From contig VGBZ01000028.1 in assembly GCA_016870275.1 (NCBI GenBank), positions 1 through 33,538 of the forward strand: 33,538 nt of DNA, given 5' to 3'. Each line of letters opens with the position of its first letter. Position 1 is the first letter of the stretch. Positions 25,833 through 33,538 of the stretch are shown here, one piece after another. Source of the stretch: Actinomycetota bacterium (lineage in GTDB: Bacteria; Actinomycetota; Acidimicrobiia; Acidimicrobiales; Microtrichaceae). Under the pieces are notes generated by a model. It saw only the letters and a program-made list of their open reading frames with translations, searched no databases and was not told the origin of the DNA. Made by a program: the position numbers and the translations under genes.

Positions 25833-27479
25833 TCAGGACAGCGCACGGTAACGGCGGATCAGGTCGTTCGTCGACGGATCGTGGTCCAGGTCGGGGTCGG
25901 TGTCGCTCAGCAGCTGCGGAGCGATCCGGGCGGCGAGAACCTTGCCGAGCTCCACGCCCCACTGGTCGAAGGAGTCGATGCCCCACACCACACCCTGGGT
26001 GAACACCGAGTGCTCGTAGAGCGCCACCAGCGTGCCGAGCCGGAACGGAGAGATCTCGTCAGTGAGGATCGTCGTGCTCGGGCGATTCCCCTCCATCACC
26101 TTCGCGGCCACGACTGCCGCCGCAGTGCCGTCAGCTGCAACCTCCTCGGCGCTGCGACCGAATGCCAGAGCCTGCGCCTGAGCGAAGACGTTCGCCGACA
26201 ACAGGTCGTGATGGTCGCCGAGTGGGTTGGGCGTCCGGGCGAAGCAGATGAAGTCGACCGGAACGATCGACGTGCCCTGGTGGATCAATTGGTAGAAGCT
26301 GTGCTGTCCGTTGGTTCCGGGCTCCCCCCAGTAGATGGCACCCGTGTCGACCTCGACATGATCCCCCGAGAGCGTGACGTGCTTGCCGTTGGACTCCATC
26401 GTCAGTTGCTGCAAGTACGCCGGAAAGCGTTCGAGGTACTGCTCGTAGGGCAGGACCGCAATGGTCTGGCAGCCCCAGAAGTTCCGGTACCACAGGGCGA
26501 GGAGCCCCATGAGGGCCGGCAGGTTCTCTCGGATGGGAGTGGTCCGGAAGTGCTCGTCGATTGCGTGGAACCCGGCGAGCAGATCGGCGAACGCCTCCGG
26601 GCCGATCGCCACCATGGTCGACAGGCCGATCGCCGAGTCCATCGAGTAGCGACCACCGACCCAGTCCCAGAACCCGAACATGTTCGCAGTGTCGATACCG
26701 AAGTCGGCCACTCCCGTTGCGTTGGTCGACACCGCCACGAAGTGGCGCTCGACAGCCTCCTCGGACCCGAGCCCCTCGACGATCCAGTCGCGGGCCGAGC
26801 GGGCATTGGTCATGGTCTCGAGCGTGGTGAAGGTCTTGGAGCAGACGATGAACAGCGTCTCTGCGGGATCGATGTCACGCGTCGCTTCGACGAAGTCGGT
26901 TCCGTCGACGTTGGAGACGAAACGGAAGTTGAGGTTCCGATCGCTGACGTGACGCAGAGCGCGGTACGCCATCACCGGGCCCAGGTCGGAACCACCGATC
27001 CCGATGTTGACGATGTTGCGTATGGGCTGCCCCGTGGCCCCGAGCCACGCCCCTGAGCGGACCGACTCGGCGAAGACGCCCATGCGGTCGAGGACGGAGT
27101 GGACCTCGGCGACCACATCGACTCCATCCACGACAAGTCGTGCGTCCCGAGGCATCCGCAGCGCCACGTGGAGCACGGATCGGTCCTCGGTCACGTTGAT
27201 GTGCTCACCGGAGAACATCGCCTCGATCCGATCGCTCAGTCCGCTCGCCGCGGCGAGTGCCACGAGCAGGTCGAGGGTCTCCGGCGTGGCGAGGTGCTTG
27301 GAGAGGTCGGCGTGGAGCCCCTCGGCATCAACCGACATGCTCGCCAGCCGACCGGCGTCAGCGGCAAACGCCTCGGCGATGTCGAACCCGGTGAGGGCGG
27401 CCCGGTGCTCCACCAGCGCCTGCCACTCGGGCAGGTTCATCGGTGGGATCGGGCTCGGCGGGTCGGCACGGTCAGTCAC
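25833..27479 (-). CDS. pgi: Glucose-6-phosphate isomerase
   Basis: A 548-residue cytoplasmic enzyme interconverting glucose 6-phosphate and fructose 6-phosphate. Family signatures are visible: [83 protein letters not shown], and the late [17 protein letters not shown] with the catalytic Lys. The length equals the E. coli-type enzyme. Start GTG 27479 is supported by a GGAG-containing stretch just upstream. A 23-bp tandem repeat with overlapping mini-ORFs fills the 70-bp gap from tal. With Pgi, fructose 6-phosphate can be cycled back to Zwf. Confidence 0.96.
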
Positions 27480-27544
27480 GCTCCTGCTCCTTGCTCATCT
27501 GGGCTGTCGTCCAGGGCTCATCTGGGCTGTCGTAAAGGGCTCAT
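27472..27544 (-). promoter_or_regulatory. Chain of three overlapping 8-codon mini-ORFs upstream of pgi
   Basis: On the minus strand three ATG-started frames follow one another: 27544-27518 (MSPLRQPR), 27521-27495 (MSPGRQPR) and 27498-27472 (MSKEQERD). Each pair overlaps by ATGA, and the last overlaps the GTG of pgi out of frame. They could mediate termination-reinitiation from tal to pgi, or be a by-product of the 23-bp repeat. Translation is unproven. Confidence 0.3.
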
Positions 27545-27545
27545 C
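27493..27545. repeat. 23-bp tandem repeat between tal and pgi
   Basis: Unit 27493-27515 and unit 27516-27538 match at 21 of 23 positions; a third, partial copy (GCTCATC) starts at 27539. Each unit contains the GCTCATCTGGGCTGTCGT core. Confidence 0.8.
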
Positions 27546-27549
27546 CGGC

Positions 27550-28632
27550 TCAGGACACTGCCTGGCGCTGGGAACGGATCCGATCGATGAGTTCACGCCA
27601 CGACGCCACGAAGGCCTCCGCTCCATCGCTCTGGAGCTTGCCGGCGAGCGCCACCACGTCGACGCCAGCCGCCTCGAAGGCCGCCAACCGCTCGTCCACG
27701 TCGCCTCCGTCGGCCGGGAGCGGTTCCCCGGGTGACCCGTGGTCCGCAAAGGCGAGGAGCGTGACGTCAGGCATGGTGTTGACCGTCAGCGGCGCAGCGA
27801 GGCCGCTCACGTACAGCGTGTCCGGAGCGGACGGGTCCTTGGAACTGGTGCTGGCCCACAACAGCCGCTGCAAGCGGGCTCCCTGGCCGGAGAGTCGCTG
27901 CCACCGCTCGGAGTCCTGCAGTTCCCGATACGCCCGGTAGACATCCAGACCGACGCTGATGCCGAGCGTGTTCCGGAGGTCGTCGCCGACCTGCCCCGAC
28001 ACCGCCGTGTCCCAGCGAGACATGAACACCGACGCCACCGAATCCACTGCCGGATCCTCCCCATTGGAGATCCGTTGCTCGACCCCGTCGAGGAACGCGT
28101 CGGCTGCGGCGCGGTACTGATCGGCGTCGAACAGGAGCGTGACGTTGACCGGCACCCCGGCGGCGATCGCCTTGGTGATCGCCGGCAGGCCCTCAGGGGT
28201 CCCGGGGATCTTGATGAAGAGGTTGTCCCGGCCCGCCCGACGGTGCAGGTCGAGTGCCGCAGCCACGGTGGCGTCGGTGTCGTAGGCGAGTTCCGGGGAG
28301 ACCTCGAGTGAGACCCAACCGTCGACGCCGTCTGTCCGTTCGTTGATCGGCGCGAACAGGTCTGCTGCTCGTTGCAGGTCCTCGATCGCCAGGGCGAAGA
28401 AGATGTCCTCGTCACTGGCGTCGGCCGACGCTGCGGCAATCACGTCGTCGTATGCGCCAGTGCCGATCGCCTTGTCGAAGATTGAGGGGTTGGAGGTGAG
28501 CCCGGTGACCGAGTACTCGTCGATGTACCGCTCGATCGTCCCATCGTCGAGCAAGGTTCGGGTGATGTTGTCGATCCACAGGCTCTGACCCATGTCGTGC
28601 AGACGCTGCGTGTGTTCGTTCGGTGTGGTCAT
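27550..28632 (-). CDS. tal: Transaldolase
   Basis: A 360-residue transaldolase of the actinobacterial long type, transferring a dihydroxyacetone unit between sugar phosphates. Key segments are QSLWIDNITRTLL, YSVTGLTSNPSIFDKAI (conserved TSNPSIF), DNLFIKIPGTPEGLPAI with the Schiff-base Lys at 141, PVNVTLLFD, and RLLWASTSSKDPSAPDTLYV. The start ATG at 28632 has AAGGA seven bases upstream. It sits between an HAD phosphatase gene (54 bp upstream) and pgi (70 bp downstream). Transketolase, its usual partner and often its neighbour, is not in the window. Confidence 0.96.
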   Translation of the reverse strand: MTTPNEHTQRLHDMGQSLWIDNITRTLLDDGTIERYIDEYSVTGLTSNPSIFDKAIGTGAYDDVIAAASADASDEDIFFALAIEDLQRAADLFAPINERTDGVDGWVSLEVSPELAYDTDATVAAALDLHRRAGRDNLFIKIPGTPEGLPAITKAIAAGVPVNVTLLFDADQYRAAADAFLDGVEQRISNGEDPAVDSVASVFMSRWDTAVSGQVGDDLRNTLGISVGLDVYRAYRELQDSERWQRLSGQGARLQRLLWASTSSKDPSAPDTLYVSGLAAPLTVNTMPDVTLLAFADHGSPGEPLPADGGDVDERLAAFEAAGVDVVALAGKLQSDGAEAFVASWRELIDRIRSQRQAVS

Positions 28633-28657
28633 GGCAGTTCCTTTGTCGGGCGACCGG

Positions 28658-28673
28658 GGCGTGTGATCACGCC
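28658..28673 (-). terminator. Short hairpin between the HAD gene and tal
   Basis: A 6-bp perfect stem (GGCGTG/CACGCC) with a 4-nt loop ATCA on the minus strand, about 14 nt after the HAD stop codon. No U-tract follows. It is weak as a terminator, and could be a processing or attenuation site. Confidence 0.25.
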
Positions 28674-28686
28674 GCCGGCGGTGTGG

Positions 28687-29496
28687 TCAGGTGTGCATTG
28701 GGGCGAGTACGAGGTCGTTGATGGCATCGGCCCAACCGTCGGCGGTGTTCGCTCCGGTCACGACGTCGGCTGCCGCCCGGACCTCAGGCCTGGCGTTGCC
28801 CATGGCCACGCCGATTCCAGCAGCGGAGAACATCGCCGTGTCGTTGGCGCCGTCACCGATCGCCAGCACGGCCTCGGCAGGAACATCGAGCAGGTCGCAC
28901 AGCGACAGCAGCCCCGCCCCCTTGTCGGCCCGGGCATCGGTCACGTCGAGGTAACACGGCTGACTTCGGGTGGCGGACACCTGAGCCCCACACGCTGCGT
29001 GCAGGAGCGCCTCGGCGTGGGCAACGGCATCGTGGTCGTCGCTGACACCGACGATCTTGGTGACGCTCAGGCCGGCGACTGCAGCGGCGACGTCGTCGAC
29101 CAACTCCGGCTGATAGCGGACATCGGCTGCGTGATGTTGGACCCGCGGGCCGTCACGATCAGCGACCAGCCAGCGAGAACCCTCGAAGGCCCAGATGCTC
29201 ACCGACGCCTCGGCGAGCGTCGAGAGCACGACGCTGGCCGCCTCGGCTGAGATCGGGACCTCGGCGAGAGGCTGCTGATCGGGGGTCACGGTCATGGCGC
29301 CGTTGAAGCCGACGAGCGGAGCGGTGAGGCCGAGGGGCGCGACGAACATGGCCATCCCGAGAGGAGGACGACTGCTCTGGAGCGCCAGGAGCACGCCGGC
29401 GTCATGGAGCTTCGCTGCGGCTGCGATCGTCGTCGGTCGAAGCGTGCGCTCTGCATCCACGAGCGTCCCGTCGACATCACTGACGACCATTCTCAC
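28687..29496 (-). CDS. HAD-superfamily hydrolase, Cof type
   Basis: About 269 residues, a Mg2+-dependent phosphatase of the Cof/HAD-IIB group that usually acts on sugar phosphates or nucleotides. Motif I is MVVSDVDGTLVD (nucleophile and acid Asp), motif II lies in LALQSSRPPLGM, the cap follows, and the end has KGAGLLSLCDLL (motif III Lys) and AIGDGANDTAMF (motif IV). The start is the GTG at 29496 or the ATG two codons on; the upstream in-frame extension lacks family sequence and overlaps the divergent promoter. Leading the carbohydrate cluster, it may relieve sugar-phosphate build-up, but this is inferred from position only. Confidence 0.88.
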   Translation of the reverse strand: MRMVVSDVDGTLVDAERTLRPTTIAAAAKLHDAGVLLALQSSRPPLGMAMFVAPLGLTAPLVGFNGAMTVTPDQQPLAEVPISAEAASVVLSTLAEASVSIWAFEGSRWLVADRDGPRVQHHAADVRYQPELVDDVAAAVAGLSVTKIVGVSDDHDAVAHAEALLHAACGAQVSATRSQPCYLDVTDARADKGAGLLSLCDLLDVPAEAVLAIGDGANDTAMFSAAGIGVAMGNARPEVRAAADVVTGANTADGWADAINDLVLAPMHT

Positions 29497-29606
29497 GGTG
29501 TTTCCGTCCACGGCCTGACCCTCATCGAATCTCCGCCGGAGCATACCGGCAATCCGACGGGGCCGATTCCAGCGACAACTCAGGTCCGGACGCCCGGCCT
29601 GAGGGC

Positions 29607-29634
29607 TTGACAGTTCGACCGGGGCAGCGAGAAT
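29607..29634 (+). promoter_or_regulatory. Sigma70-type promoter of the phospholipase-like gene
   Basis: TTGACA at 29607-29612 and GAGAAT at 29629-29634, spaced 16 bp. Transcription would start near 29641, downstream of the ATG at 29633, which argues against that ATG being the start codon and for the TTG at 29672. Confidence 0.5.
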
Positions 29635-29671
29635 GCATCTGGGATCTCGGGCGAGCGAGTGGAGATGCACC

Positions 29672-31222
29672 TTGGACAGGCGAGGATTCCTTCGGCTCGG
29701 CGCAATGGTCGGCAGTGGAATAGCAGTCGGTGGCGCTCTGTCGTCCTGCGTCCCAGCAGCGCTCGGCATCGGCGGCGAGTACTTCCCGACCCGCACCCCA
29801 ACCGGCTCGATGCTGGATCTCCCGGCGAGCTCCTCACCGATCGACCACATCGTGTTCGTCATGCTCGAGAACCGGTCCTTCGACCACTACCTCGGGTGGC
29901 TCGGTGGCGACGAGGGCTATCTCGAACGCGGCCGCACCCTGTGGGGTACCGATTTCTCCATCGACGCCTCCGTTGATCAGGGCTTCCTCGACGGCGCCGG
30001 CATCGAGCATCGGACCCACTCGCTGGCGGGAGGACCAGAGCCTTACGGCTACCGGGGCTGCGGGTTCGCCGATCCCGGCCACAGTTGGGGCTCGGGGCGT
30101 GCCCAGCGTGATCGCGGCTTCATCGGCGAAGGCTCGAACAACGACGACTACGCACTCGGGTACCACGAGGCCGACGACCTGCCGTTCATGTCGCGTCTCG
30201 CCCGGCGCTTCACCACCTTCGACCGCTATCACTGCTCGATGCTCGCAGCGACGCAGCCCAACCGGCGCTACCTGCACTCGGCGCAGTCCGGTGGATACAA
30301 GAACAACTACATCCCCCTCGAGGAGCTCGGCCACCAGTGGGACACCATCTGGGACCGCCTCCGGGTCGCTGGCGTGCCATGTCGGTCCTACTTCTCCGAC
30401 CTGCCGAGCATTGCGTTCTGGGGCCCTCGCATGGCCCAACACACCGCCGGGATCGACCACTACTTCGCCGACTGTGCCGCCGGAAGGCTGCCGAACGTGG
30501 TGCATGTCGACCCGCCGTTCCTCCCCTGGTGGCAGGCCGACGACCATCCTCACTGCGATCCGGGAGCCGGACAGCGGTTTCTGCGTGACGTGTTCCGCGC
30601 CTTCGTGGAATCCCCGTGCTGGGAGCGTGGCGTGTTCATCGTCACCTATGACGAGTGGGGCGGGTTCTTCGACCACGTGCCGCCGCCGGTGCTGCCCGAT
30701 CTGCTCGCCTCCGGCAACGACGAGGACAACTTCGGGCAGGCCGGGTTCCGGGTACCCACCATCATGGCGTCCCCGTTCGCCCGACCGGGCTTCGTCGACC
30801 ACCGGACCTACGACCACACCTCGATCCTGCGATTCATCGAGTGGCGGTTCCTCGGAGCCCCGCCAGAAGGCCCTGCCGGCGAAGGCTGGTGGCTGACGCC
30901 GCGGGATCGGGCGGCGAACAACATCGGTGCATCACTCGCCCTCACCGATCCGGACGCCGATCTCTTCGAGCTCGACTCGCTACCGCTTCGTCAACCGACC
31001 CCGCTGTGCAACGGCACACCGCAGGCGCTGTGGCCCGGTGCACAGCCCGACCGAACCGCTCACGAGTTCACCCCACCGCCGACGACGGCGGTTCCGACCG
31101 GTTCGGCCGTGACGAAGGGTGGGCCGGGTGGGGATCTGCTCGAAGCAATGGAAGCGGGCTACTTCGAGCAGGTCGGTATCAGCGGTGACTTCCCGTCGAT
31201 GGCCGGCACCTGGGCCGACTGA
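29672..31222 (+). CDS. Tat-exported phospholipase C/acid phosphatase-type phosphoesterase
   Basis: About 516 residues. The N-terminus is a twin-arginine signal, LDRRGFLRLGAMVGSG, followed by a hydrophobic run ending in LSSC, which also fits a lipobox. The mature part is the bacterial phosphoesterase family of phospholipases C and AcpA-type acid phosphatases: IDHIVFVMLENRSFDHYLGW near the start, CSMLAATQPNRRY, and TYDEWGGFFDHVPPP plus YDHTSILRFIEWRF near the end. It likely cleaves phospholipid or other phosphate esters outside the membrane. TTG 29672 is preferred over the ATG at 29633 because GGAG sits 7 nt upstream, it puts RR at residues 3-4, and the promoter -10 overlaps the ATG. A Pro/Thr-rich tail precedes the C-terminus. 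Confidence 0.9.
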   Translation: MDRRGFLRLGAMVGSGIAVGGALSSCVPAALGIGGEYFPTRTPTGSMLDLPASSSPIDHIVFVMLENRSFDHYLGWLGGDEGYLERGRTLWGTDFSIDASVDQGFLDGAGIEHRTHSLAGGPEPYGYRGCGFADPGHSWGSGRAQRDRGFIGEGSNNDDYALGYHEADDLPFMSRLARRFTTFDRYHCSMLAATQPNRRYLHSAQSGGYKNNYIPLEELGHQWDTIWDRLRVAGVPCRSYFSDLPSIAFWGPRMAQHTAGIDHYFADCAAGRLPNVVHVDPPFLPWWQADDHPHCDPGAGQRFLRDVFRAFVESPCWERGVFIVTYDEWGGFFDHVPPPVLPDLLASGNDEDNFGQAGFRVPTIMASPFARPGFVDHRTYDHTSILRFIEWRFLGAPPEGPAGEGWWLTPRDRAANNIGASLALTDPDADLFELDSLPLRQPTPLCNGTPQALWPGAQPDRTAHEFTPPPTTAVPTGSAVTKGGPGGDLLEAMEAGYFEQVGISGDFPSMAGTWAD

Positions 31223-31313: not shown

Positions 31314-32147
31314 TCAGACGCGTTCGCCAGGGGACGGCGTGCGTCCGCTCGACTCGGTGAGCAGGGCCTCGTCGATCACCGTCACCGCGCCCCGCAGGTC
31401 CGACGCCCAGCGATCGGCTCCGATTAACTCGGCCACGTGATCGTTGAGCACCCCCGGGCCACCCACGAGGACCATCACTCCCGGGATCCGTTCGTGGAGG
31501 AGTGCGGTGGTCGCAGCCACACCATCGAGCGGAACCGCACCGCTCACACCGAGCGCGACGAGTCGGAGCGATCGGGCTGCACGCGCAGCAGCGAGGACCA
31601 CGTCGGGAGGCACCTCCGCTCCGAGCTCGACGCAGGCCGCTCCGCGGAGGCGCACGAGGTCGGCGAGGATGGACGTCGACAGCGAGTGCTGCTCCCCCTG
31701 TGGTGTGGCGACCACCACGGTTCCCCGGGTTCGACCGGGCCGTCGGAACCGGGCGCCGAGCCGTGCCACGATCCGCTCTGCGACCGTCGCTGCGAGGTAT
31801 CCGTCCACGGGGTCGCCGTCAGGCGGGAGCGACTGGAGAGCCACCACGAGTACGTCGAGATAGCACGCCTCGGGATCCAGGCCCGAGCGGAGGGCGTCCT
31901 CGAGCACTCGCCACGCCGCCACCTCGTCGCCACGCTCGAGCGCCGGTCGCATTCGTTCCGCCCAGTCCACCCGGCGCCGCCGAGTCGGCCGGTCGCTCCG
32001 CCGTGAGACCTCGAACCGGCGGAGCTGTGACTCGCTCACCTCCCAGCCGGTCGACGTCCGATCGGCTTCGAGTTGATGGGTGCGCACCCAGCGGTAGGCC
32101 GTGGTGTAGTGGACTCCGAGTCGCAGTGCCACCTGCTTGATGTTCAC
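31314..32147 (-). CDS. HTH regulator with cobalamin-binding domain (CarH/LitR-like)
   Basis: About 277 residues. Residues 1-46 form a MerR/excisionase-type helix-turn-helix (VALRLGVHYTTAYRWVR, then GWEVSESQLRRF). Residues about 62-134 are a helical bundle and 140-260 a B12-binding Rossmann-like domain. TPQGEQH keeps the His (H154) that is the lower cobalt ligand in CarH, followed by LGAEVPPDVVLAAA and VMVLVGGPGV. The Wx9EH motif of light-sensing CarH is not kept: Val at 114 and Glu-Arg at 124-125. The start is GTG 32147, with a perfect TACCAT -10 six bases upstream. It is divergent from the toroid protein gene with 24 bp between start codons, so it probably controls that gene and itself. Confidence 0.87.
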   Translation of the reverse strand: MNIKQVALRLGVHYTTAYRWVRTHQLEADRTSTGWEVSESQLRRFEVSRRSDRPTRRRRVDWAERMRPALERGDEVAAWRVLEDALRSGLDPEACYLDVLVVALQSLPPDGDPVDGYLAATVAERIVARLGARFRRPGRTRGTVVVATPQGEQHSLSTSILADLVRLRGAACVELGAEVPPDVVLAAARAARSLRLVALGVSGAVPLDGVAATTALLHERIPGVMVLVGGPGVLNDHVAELIGADRWASDLRGAVTVIDEALLTESSGRTPSPGERV

Positions 32148-32153
32148 GTGGCG

Positions 32154-32159
32154 ATGGTA
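32154..32159 (-). promoter_or_regulatory. Leaderless promoter of the B12-domain regulator
   Basis: TACCAT on the minus strand spans -12 to -7 of the GTG at 32147. Only 24 bp separate this start from the divergent ATG at 32172, so the two promoters must overlap and any operator would affect both. Confidence 0.55.
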
Positions 32160-32171
32160 GCTGGGTCGCTC

Positions 32172-33538
32172 ATGCACCCAATGGCCGAGGTTGACCAGAG
32201 CCCGCACACCAGGTGGGATGATCTGGTGCCCCGCACCGCTTCCCGACGCGCGCCCGCCACCACATCGGTGGCCAGGTGGACGGCAGTGCTGCTCGTCGTC
32301 GCTACGGTCCTCCTGGCCAGCTTCCTGCCCAACGGATTGACCCCGTTCGGGCACACCGACGCCGGCGCTGTCGAACCGGGACCACCCACGCCGACCGAGG
32401 CCGCCGACCGAGCGGCGGCGTGGCTTGCGGGCGAGGTGAGCAACGACACCCTCACCACCGGAGGGGTACCCGATCCCGGACTGGCGGCCGACGCCGTGCT
32501 GGCACTCGCTGCTGCAGGCCGACAACCCGGGGCCTCCGAGCGACTCGCCCGCCGACTGCTCGACGACCCAGCTGCGACGACGCGACCGGTGGGACCGGGT
32601 CAGGTCCTCGCTGGCGCAACCGCCAAATTGATCCTGGTTGCGACCGCCACCGGCAACGATCCACGCTCGGTAGCGGGAGAGGATCTCGTGGCATCGCTGC
32701 AGGGACGAGCCGTCGATGAACCCGGGGCCATCGACGATGGCCGGCTGCGCGACCGCCCACCGACCAGCACGCCGGCGCTCAGCGACCGTTCGAACGCCTT
32801 CACCCAGGCATTCGGCGTGCTGGCCCTCGCCCGGACGGGTTCTGCCCCCGCAGACGTCGTTGCGTACCTTCGGGCGCAGCAGTGCCCGGGGGGTGGATTC
32901 CGACTGTTCCTCACTGGCGGCCGCAACTGCAGCACCGATGCCGCCGCCGACGTCGACACCACAGCACTGGCCGTCGTGGCGTTGCTCGAGAACGGGCGGG
33001 ACGGCATCGGCGATCCGGATCCAGCCGTGGCCTCGGCGCTGGACTGGCTCGAGTCGGTCCAACGGGTTGACGGAGCGTGGTCGAGCTCCGGACCCGGTGC
33101 CACTGCGAACGCCAACAGCACCGGTCTCGCCGCTGCTACCGCCCGGGCCGGTGGCCGGCTCCCTGCTGCCGATCGAGGCCGATCGTGGATCGTCGACCGG
33201 CAGCTGACCTGTGCCGGCGGCAGTACGAGCGTCGGAGCCATCGCCTTCAGCGTGGCGGCCCAGACCTCGGCGGGAAATGGCATCGCCGCACCCGCTCGTG
33301 ACCAGTTCCGGCGCAGCACCGCCCAGGCCCTCTTGGCGCTCACACCCGGTCCGATCGGCTCGACCGCACCGATCGCCGCCGACAGCAACCCGCCCTGCGT
33401 CCCCACCGACACCGTCCCCACCGACACCGTCCCGACCGACACCGTCCCGACCGACACCGTCCCGACCGACACCGTCCCGACCGACACCGTCCCCACCGAC
33501 ACCGTCCCGACCGGCACCGTCCCGACAGCTGCGGTACT
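32172..33538 (+). CDS. Membrane-anchored prenyltransferase/squalene-oxidase-repeat (alpha/alpha toroid) protein, partial
   Basis: Open from ATG 32172 to the window end, at least 455 residues, with no stop codon seen. A short basic tail and a hydrophobic segment ([17 protein letters not shown], residues 36-52) form a signal or anchor. The body (about 70-400) has the repeats of the squalene-cyclase/prenyltransferase toroid: [71 protein letters not shown] and WIVDRQLTC. No DxDD or QW catalytic set is evident, and the Cys in export-side loops suggest a binding protein. From residue 411 a PTDTV repeat makes a stiff linker. The fold is shared with intrinsic factor and transcobalamin, and the divergent gene is a B12-domain regulator. 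ATG 32181 is an alternative start. Confidence 0.8.
33402..33536 (+). repeat. 15-bp in-frame tandem repeat (PTDTV)
   Basis: Nine contiguous 15-bp units: seven encode PTDTV, then PTGTV and PTAAV. The units vary only at the third base of the Pro codon until the last two. The array runs to the window edge, so its full length is unknown. It encodes an extracytoplasmic Pro/Thr linker. Confidence 0.92.

Follow-up and report, generated by a model that had tools for sequence, protein, structure and literature searches.

A putative two-chain, transcobalamin-like cobalamin capture and import operon with a divergent B12-domain regulator in a genus of Microtrichaceae

Introduction

Why would a helix-turn-helix (HTH) protein with a cobalamin (vitamin B12)-binding domain share one upstream region with an exported protein of the alpha/alpha-toroid fold? 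The question was raised by two divergent genes at the end of contig C28 (VGBZ01000028.1) of an Actinomycetota bacterium of the family Microtrichaceae (GCA_016870275.1), a metagenome-assembled genome of 3.2 Mb in 137 contigs that is 96.3% complete. The stretch analysed, hereafter the window, comprises 33,538 nucleotides. It carries the regulator gene at 31314..32147 on the reverse strand, starting at GTG 32147, and the 5' part of the toroid protein gene at 32226..33538 on the forward strand. The initial annotation had proposed that the toroid protein captures corrinoid outside the membrane and that the regulator senses B12 and controls it. The capture part of this proposal gained support from the extension of the operon, from riboswitches in relatives and from the lack of an intact cyclase motif; judged from sequence, the operon very probably serves cobalamin (corrinoid) capture and import. 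B12-responsive control of the operon by the regulator appears slightly favoured. The evidence is evenly balanced on whether, in one genus, an RNA sensor of B12 has given way to a light-independent, B12-sensing protein repressor at a two-chain transcobalamin/energy-coupling factor (ECF) operon, with a putative operator over the toroid promoter.

Operon structure and conservation

The toroid gene runs off the contig within a (VPTDT)n stalk (33399..33538, forward strand), the repeat at which the assembly broke. The last 124 bases of the window correspond to positions 1-124 of contig C17 (C17:1-124) with mismatches, and its final 20 bases have a single occurrence in the first 20 kb of C17. The join was backed by two relatives: at locus L122 a single contig spans the toroid gene and the four genes after it, and in genome G095 a single contig holds the operon except for the toroid 5' end. 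Past the 124-base overlap, C17 supplies the last 157 bases of the exported toroid open reading frame (ORF), which ends at C17:281 and encodes, with this end, 507 amino acids from the first ATG.

As things to seek beyond position 33538, the initial annotation had named a DUF4430 domain, a cobalamin transporter or salvage gene, and an ECF S-component, and C17 provided a protein of the DUF4430/transcobalamin fold, an S-component, EcfT and EcfAA'. The exported beta-domain (SLBB) protein is encoded at C17:278-1210, overlaps the toroid stop by 4 bp and has a weak match to the SCO2322 family. It is followed by EcfT (CbiQ) at C17:1207-2343 (CbiQ, 40.3 bits against a cut-off of 25), a fused EcfA-EcfA' with two ABC_tran stretches at C17:2340-3983, and an S-component at C17:3905-4819, with a nominal start (PF12822, 31.9 bits against a cut-off of 30.7). 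One operon thus holds an S-component, EcfT and two EcfA domains, the composition of an ECF transporter with its own module. Farther along C17, the genes tested included those of a flavin monooxygenase-like protein and a TetR regulator.

The gene order was found to be conserved. Among 198 sampled genomes of the class, in which a match confined to the Thr/Pro stalk did not qualify as a toroid, true toroid homologs were present in five genomes besides this one, and the order toroid-SLBB-EcfT-EcfAA-S was seen in all five. A scan with the beta-domain alignment, using one genome per species from 84,980 species, gave 295 relatives, from which 77 loci were kept, by record title from Actinomycetota (Streptomyces, Micromonospora, Salinispora and others). 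EcfT was present in 73 of these loci, EcfAA in 69, the S-component in 63 and a toroid match in 64; all five were present in 61. The genes SLBB-EcfT-EcfAA-S stood in order on one strand in 61/77 loci, with the toroid gene directly before them in 47, after the S gene in 10, and not in line on the strand in four. The loci with the toroid after S were mostly from Streptomyces (L142, L151, L155, L163, L164, L165, L167, L177, L178 and L197). In the family sample of 33 genomes (6 of the same genus and 27 of other genera), the toroid gene was present in 24, including all six of the genus.

Some loci carried duplicated pairs. Two toroid and beta-domain pairs stand ahead of the ECF genes in many Micromonospora loci, and locus L084 (G384:C1:675000-682500) has two such pairs in tandem, preceded by a divergent pair of cobalamin riboswitches.

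Cobalamin riboswitches and host B12 metabolism

Cobalamin riboswitches were sought with the Rfam model RF00174 (gathering score 31.5 bits), whole genomes being scanned at E ≤ 0.001. In a phylum sample of 396 genomes, the toroid family NF053823 was matched in 125, with 11 above the curated cut-off, and 40 toroid loci were hand-picked from these 125, one per genome, a choice that favours high scores and genus spread. The fetched stretch, of about 7 kb or less, contained no ECF gene at 11 of the 40 loci. RF00174 was found within 1.5 kb upstream of the toroid gene, on the same strand, in 28/40 genomes, and 13 of these matches exceeded the gathering score; a scan with all Rfam models likewise placed a riboswitch above its curated score at 13 of the 40 loci. 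Two genomes (G228 and G346) were counted through a second toroid match and not the fetched one. In seven more genomes the riboswitch was on the same strand but 4.4-8.3 kb upstream, and in each of these the fetched stretch has matches to EcfAA and S immediately ahead of the toroid; in five genomes there was no riboswitch at either distance. The control region at equal distance downstream yielded two riboswitches, each of which belongs to a toroid gene that comes after it. The weak riboswitches (25-31 bits) stand by their position and not by score alone.

Riboswitches were also present at class loci L031, L034 and L035, and at five of the eight scan loci searched with Rfam; the three without one (L121, L122 and L123) all belong to the genus of the present genome. 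Because relatives carry cobalamin riboswitches at the same operon, the operon can be tied to B12. Two further arrangements were noted. In other families, the toroid gene comes after the ECF ATPase and S genes, and there is a strong riboswitch on the same strand 4-8 kb ahead of it (L088, L090, L093, L094, L097, L098 and L101). At L034 (5900-6658; genome G087, same family), a beta-domain gene that stands alone and has a cobalamin riboswitch to itself converges on the main operon.

The corrin-synthesis marker CbiC (precorrin-8X methylmutase) was not found in the present genome. The B12 domain of methionine synthase (MetH) was found, with a stop inside the match, near its end, together with a cobalamin adenosyltransferase. 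As CbiC is missing but MetH and the adenosyltransferase are present, the organism should need imported B12, for which the genome gives modest evidence. The MetH and adenosyltransferase matches lie about 3 kb apart (G000:C3:51587-55748).

The regulator

The regulator is predicted to have an N-terminal HTH (HTH_17/MerR-like) followed by four-helix and Rossmann B12-binding domains. All three Pfam matches were slightly below the curated cut-offs: HTH_17 (1.8e-5, 25.3 bits against 27), B12-binding_2 (5.4e-4, 20.5 bits against 23) and B12-binding (1.4e-7, 31.9 bits against 32.1). Among solved structures, the best matches were a GGDEF protein, cobalamin-binding proteins and methionine synthases. The ligand motif is present as TPQGEQH, of the ExH type, and GE[QR]H is kept in 6/6 orthologs of the genus; the description of the gene product as an HTH protein with a TPxGExH-bearing B12-binding domain was therefore borne out, and this combination of domains with ExH is shared with CarH. 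In the regulator and in all six orthologs, the G of ExHxxG is replaced by S. The adenosyl cap motif Wx9EH was not found in the regulator, which has no W at this site and ER instead of EH. Of the four motifs of the light signature, GxxH and GxxxP are present and GxxW and EH are missing.

Within the family sample, an ortholog (63% identity or more) was present in all six genomes of the genus and in none of the 27 others, where the best matches reached 38-40% identity. The regulator and toroid genes are divergent neighbours in five of the six; in the sixth (G582) they lie on different contigs. The riboswitch showed the opposite distribution, with RF00174 found in 25/27 genomes of the other genera and in 0/6 of this genus. 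Of the 18 genomes of other genera that bear a toroid gene, 14 have the riboswitch directly upstream of one. No RF00174 match was found in the present genome at the scan threshold, and a search of 31900-32500 with all Rfam models for a hidden riboswitch gave no member of the RF00174/RF01482 clan up to E 10. Since the genus has riboswitch 0/6 and regulator 6/6, against 25/27 and 0/27 in the other genera, an exchange of sensors in which the RNA was lost and the protein gained is suggested.

In the class sample, regulator matches at E ≤ 0.001 were found in 90/198 genomes, many of them weak or to other B12-binding proteins. In G083, G023 and G035, a homolog of 35-37% identity is found 1-2 kb past the S gene that ends a riboswitch-headed SLBB-EcfT-EcfAA-S operon, with riboswitch scores of 36.6, 30.0 and 28.1 bits, respectively, one above and two below the gathering score. 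These three regions were chosen because a riboswitch is on the same contig, and by eye they hold the sole strong regulator matches (E ≤ 1e-30) among 40 riboswitch-scanned genomes. A paralog of the regulator (34%) is present at G000:C22:11745-12533, with no operon genes within the 7.5 kb fetched.

The shared upstream region

The initial annotation gave the two genes a start-to-start distance of 24 bp. This was a start-codon artefact, arising from the use of the first in-frame ATG at 32172, and the distance is instead about 78 bp (32148..32225). The ATG is matched in 0/4 other members of the genus, and a conserved promoter-like block would be coding if it were used; GTG 32226 fits as the toroid start in 5/5 members.

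Comparison of the five genus members gave a common layout: GCACCCAA(T/A)G(A/G)CC, 3 or 13 bases, GTTGACC, 20-21 bases, GATG, 3-6 bases, GTG. The promoter stretch of L122 is the same as that of genus genome G580. The 13-bp block GCACCCAATGGCC (32174..32186, forward strand), present in all five members, is a candidate operator, five sequences from one genus being few, and its first half may double as the -35 element of the regulator on the opposite strand. No second copy of the block was found in the window or in the first 20 kb of C17. Downstream of it, TTGACC (32191-32196) and GATGAT (32217-32222) form a candidate toroid promoter (32190..32222, forward strand; 5/5 members), with a spacing that exceeds the usual 17. 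The toroid start at GTG 32226 follows GATGAT almost directly, so that the predicted transcript would be almost leaderless. The gap between the block and GTTGACC is 3 bp in three genomes and 13 bp in two, a difference of 10 bp, or one helical turn. The TGRCC of the block is repeated in GTTGACC, 10 or 20 bp downstream, in four of the five members, an arrangement reminiscent of the CarH operators, which are 11-bp direct repeats in the available text of PMC8156234; the consensus differs.

The toroid and beta-domain proteins

The alpha/alpha-toroid domain (32376..33371, forward strand) was modelled with AlphaFold2 from a 49-sequence alignment, with a predicted local distance difference test score (pLDDT) of 93.9. 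The best NCBIfam match of the protein was the SCO2321 membrane-protein family NF053823 (2e-30, 105.9 bits against a cut-off of 300), and there was no Pfam match to the animal family Cobalamin_bind or to DUF4430. The closest solved folds by VIA-align were squalene-hopene and drimenyl diphosphate cyclases (Z about 25). The likeness to transcobalamin and intrinsic factor claimed by the initial annotation was borne out: both were among the Foldseek matches (E 2e-5 to 1e-4; rat transcobalamin, E 2.2e-5 and TM(query) 0.52), but cyclases ranked above them. Transcobalamin was absent from the best 50 VIA-align rows, which excludes nothing. The claim of a divergently transcribed, exported toroid without an intact cyclase motif stood. 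The site of the cyclase DXDD motif reads DVDTT (32949..32963, forward strand), with the fourth Asp replaced, and across the 49 aligned toroids the first Asp was present in 37, the third in all 49 and the fourth in one.

The beta-domain protein matched the SCO2322 family NF040672 at 2e-6 (28.5 bits against a cut-off of 85). Its domain was modelled on the L122 ortholog (69% identical; 129 residues, 30-sequence alignment, pLDDT 84). The top 15 VIA-align matches were 3u7z, haptocorrin, transcobalamin and intrinsic factor, with Z of 8.4-9.4, the next being 5.3. For 3u7z, which we take to be a DUF4430 protein, Z was 9.4 with a root-mean-square deviation (rmsd) of 2.7 over 94 aligned residues, and for haptocorrin Z was 9.1 with an rmsd of 2.9 over 93. 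The matches to the carrier proteins all fell at their beta domain. By sequence, the beta-domain profile gave nothing against solved transcobalamin up to E 10, the likeness being one of fold. The animal carriers are single soluble chains taken up through receptors. Here, the toroid and beta domain are on two ORFs; fusion of both on one chain was seen in seven ORFs among 126 partly redundant loci searched, and because such fusions exist in relatives, the two proteins probably act together.

The C-termini suggest different modes of anchoring. The toroid ends in LALTG, a hydrophobic segment and RRIRRR; LAxTG is presumably a class E sortase sorting signal. An L(A/P)x(T/S)G motif lay within the last 60 residues of 54/64 complete toroid ORFs and of 2/73 beta-domain ORFs, and a hydrophobic segment with a basic tail ended 57 of the 73 beta-domain ORFs. 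Because of this split, the toroid looks wall-anchored and the beta-domain protein membrane-anchored. A Thr/Pro stalk of the same type was noted in another protein of the genome (L029; G000:C6:78141-78293).

Upstream of the regulator, the genes at 25833-31222 of the window are unrelated to B12 and encode phosphoglucose isomerase, transaldolase, a HAD hydrolase and a phosphoesterase-family protein, the last with a twin-arginine (Tat)-like signal judged by eye.

Discussion

The preferred explanation may be set out as follows. The toroid protein would be exported and anchored to the cell wall by its LAxTG signal on the Pro/Thr stalk, and the second exported protein, with its transcobalamin-type beta domain, would be held at the membrane by a C-terminal helix. 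The two chains would close around a corrinoid as transcobalamin or intrinsic factor does with its two domains, and we infer that these ectodomains bind it and hand it over to a dedicated ECF transporter composed of the S-component, EcfT and the fused EcfA-EcfA'. In this genus, the riboswitch would have been lost and the divergent B12-domain HTH protein would stand in its place, in the simplest case repressing the operon once the cytoplasm has enough B12.

A number of observations weigh against this explanation. Of the 28 near riboswitches, 15 were below the gathering cut-off, and the contig join carries four mismatches in 124 bases. No ECF genes accompany a second toroid and beta-domain pair in G190 (L033) within the fetched 16 kb. 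In both sequence and fold, terpene cyclases are closer to the toroid than transcobalamin is; the beta-domain protein has no Pfam match at all, DUF4430 and Cobalamin_bind included, and by Foldseek alone its domain had no match at E ≤ 0.001, the carriers being absent among the 50 rows shown. By sequence, the S-component matches none of the S-components of solved structure. The absence of corrin synthesis was judged by one marker in an incomplete genome. On the side of control, the regulator lacks Wx9EH, and four of the seven fetched regions around regulator homologs show no B12 operon, one of the four being that of the paralog.

The regulator's role is where the main rival lies. The operon may serve B12 uptake under a CarA-like regulator that represses independently of B12 or answers another signal, a tentative reading that we find the less persuasive. 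CarA of Myxococcus also lacks Wx9EH and, according to the available part of PMC8156234, binds its operator and represses without B12, and the serine in place of the G of ExHxxG, constant in the six orthologs, fits such a protein. The ExH itself is kept in those same orthologs, however; the regulator occupies the place of the relatives' B12 sensor RNA, which this genus has lost, and in the three other-family genomes the homolog lies close beyond the S-component gene of a riboswitch-headed SLBB-ECF operon. Control by light through an adenosylcobalamin photoreceptor of the CarH type has the HTH and cobalamin domain and the motifs GxxH and GxxxP in its favour. The lack of GxxW and EH, set against the signature in the accessible text of PMC11796333, and of Wx9EH makes it highly improbable, and the regulator was ruled out as such a photoreceptor.

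The transported compound may differ from that proposed. It is rather unlikely that the ECF system imports, instead of cobalamin, a precursor or lower-ligand base (cobinamide, dimethylbenzimidazole) or cobalt. Cobalamin riboswitches also govern cobalt and precursor transport (PMC3766115, in the portion available), and the EcfT is of the CbiQ type; yet cobalt for de novo synthesis is unlikely in a genome with no CbiC, the large toroid and beta-domain pair suits a corrinoid, and the S-component matches PF12822 and not CbiM. Cobinamide as the ligand is fully possible. Very little speaks for the toroid being an exported enzyme with no link to B12, of the terpene cyclase or glycosidase type, beyond the cyclases that are its closest solved folds. 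DXDD is incomplete in 48/49 toroids, the protein is exported, an LxxTG-like sorting motif and, at the locus, B12 riboswitches recur in its relatives, and ECF genes adjoin it; a terpene cyclase enzyme was ruled out by the incomplete motif and the genomic context.

If the capture and import explanation holds, a testable function and mechanism would be available for SCO2321 and SCO2322, two actinobacterial families that bear only locus-tag names and are present in Streptomyces, Micromonospora and uncultured lineages. The present toroid and beta-domain proteins match these families (NF053823 and NF040672) below their cut-offs. In the open-licence literature, as far as its text was available, the sole match to the names SCO2321-SCO2325 concerned a skin-penetrating peptide. 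The 2007 proposal of a bacterial ancestry of transcobalamin would become testable in cultured strains, and the genus would offer a clean case of a ligand-binding protein replacing a riboswitch at a conserved operon.

The pair resembles animal transcobalamin, intrinsic factor and haptocorrin in combining, as modelled, the same alpha/alpha-toroid and beta-domain folds. Unlike those carriers, with which no sequence match was listed up to E 10, it consists of two anchored proteins with an ECF importer. ECF-type cobalamin import is established for ECF-CbrT of Lactobacillus delbrueckii (PMC5997447); CbrT draws on a common, shared ECF module, the accessible text of that paper mentions no extracellular capture protein, and the present S-component has no sequence match to solved CbrT. 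CarH, CarA and LitR share the HTH and B12-binding domain with the regulator. CarH is defined by ExHxxG...GG plus Wx9EH in the part of PMC8156234 available, and its light signature by GxxW, EH, GxxH and GxxxP in that of PMC11796333; the regulator described here lacks Wx9EH and adjoins a B12-uptake operon, not carotenoid genes.

The B12-scavenging idea for bacterial toroid-SLBB proteins is already known since 2007. Burroughs et al. (PMC1796856), in the available part of the paper, named the SLBB superfamily, described toroid-SLBB proteins beside CbiO-like and CbiQ-like genes and proposed B12 scavenging, in systems found mainly in low-GC Gram-positives and planctomycetes and commonly fused. Searches of the open-licence literature on bacterial transcobalamin-like proteins, ECF transport, riboswitches and B12-domain regulators gave no such actinobacterial system and no exchange of a riboswitch for a protein, and the available text of PMC9600381 and PMC2667541 describes no such operon. 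As far as these searches go, the actinobacterial two-chain form, the Pfam-invisible beta domain, the riboswitch evidence, the split between wall and membrane anchoring and the replacement of the riboswitch at the level of a genus are new. The system described here is like those of Burroughs et al. in its exported toroid and SLBB beta-grasp domains encoded beside CbiO-like ATPase and CbiQ-like genes, and it differs from what the available part of that paper describes in its occurrence in Actinomycetota, its two chains, a beta domain that escapes Pfam, its riboswitches and, in one genus, its protein regulator.

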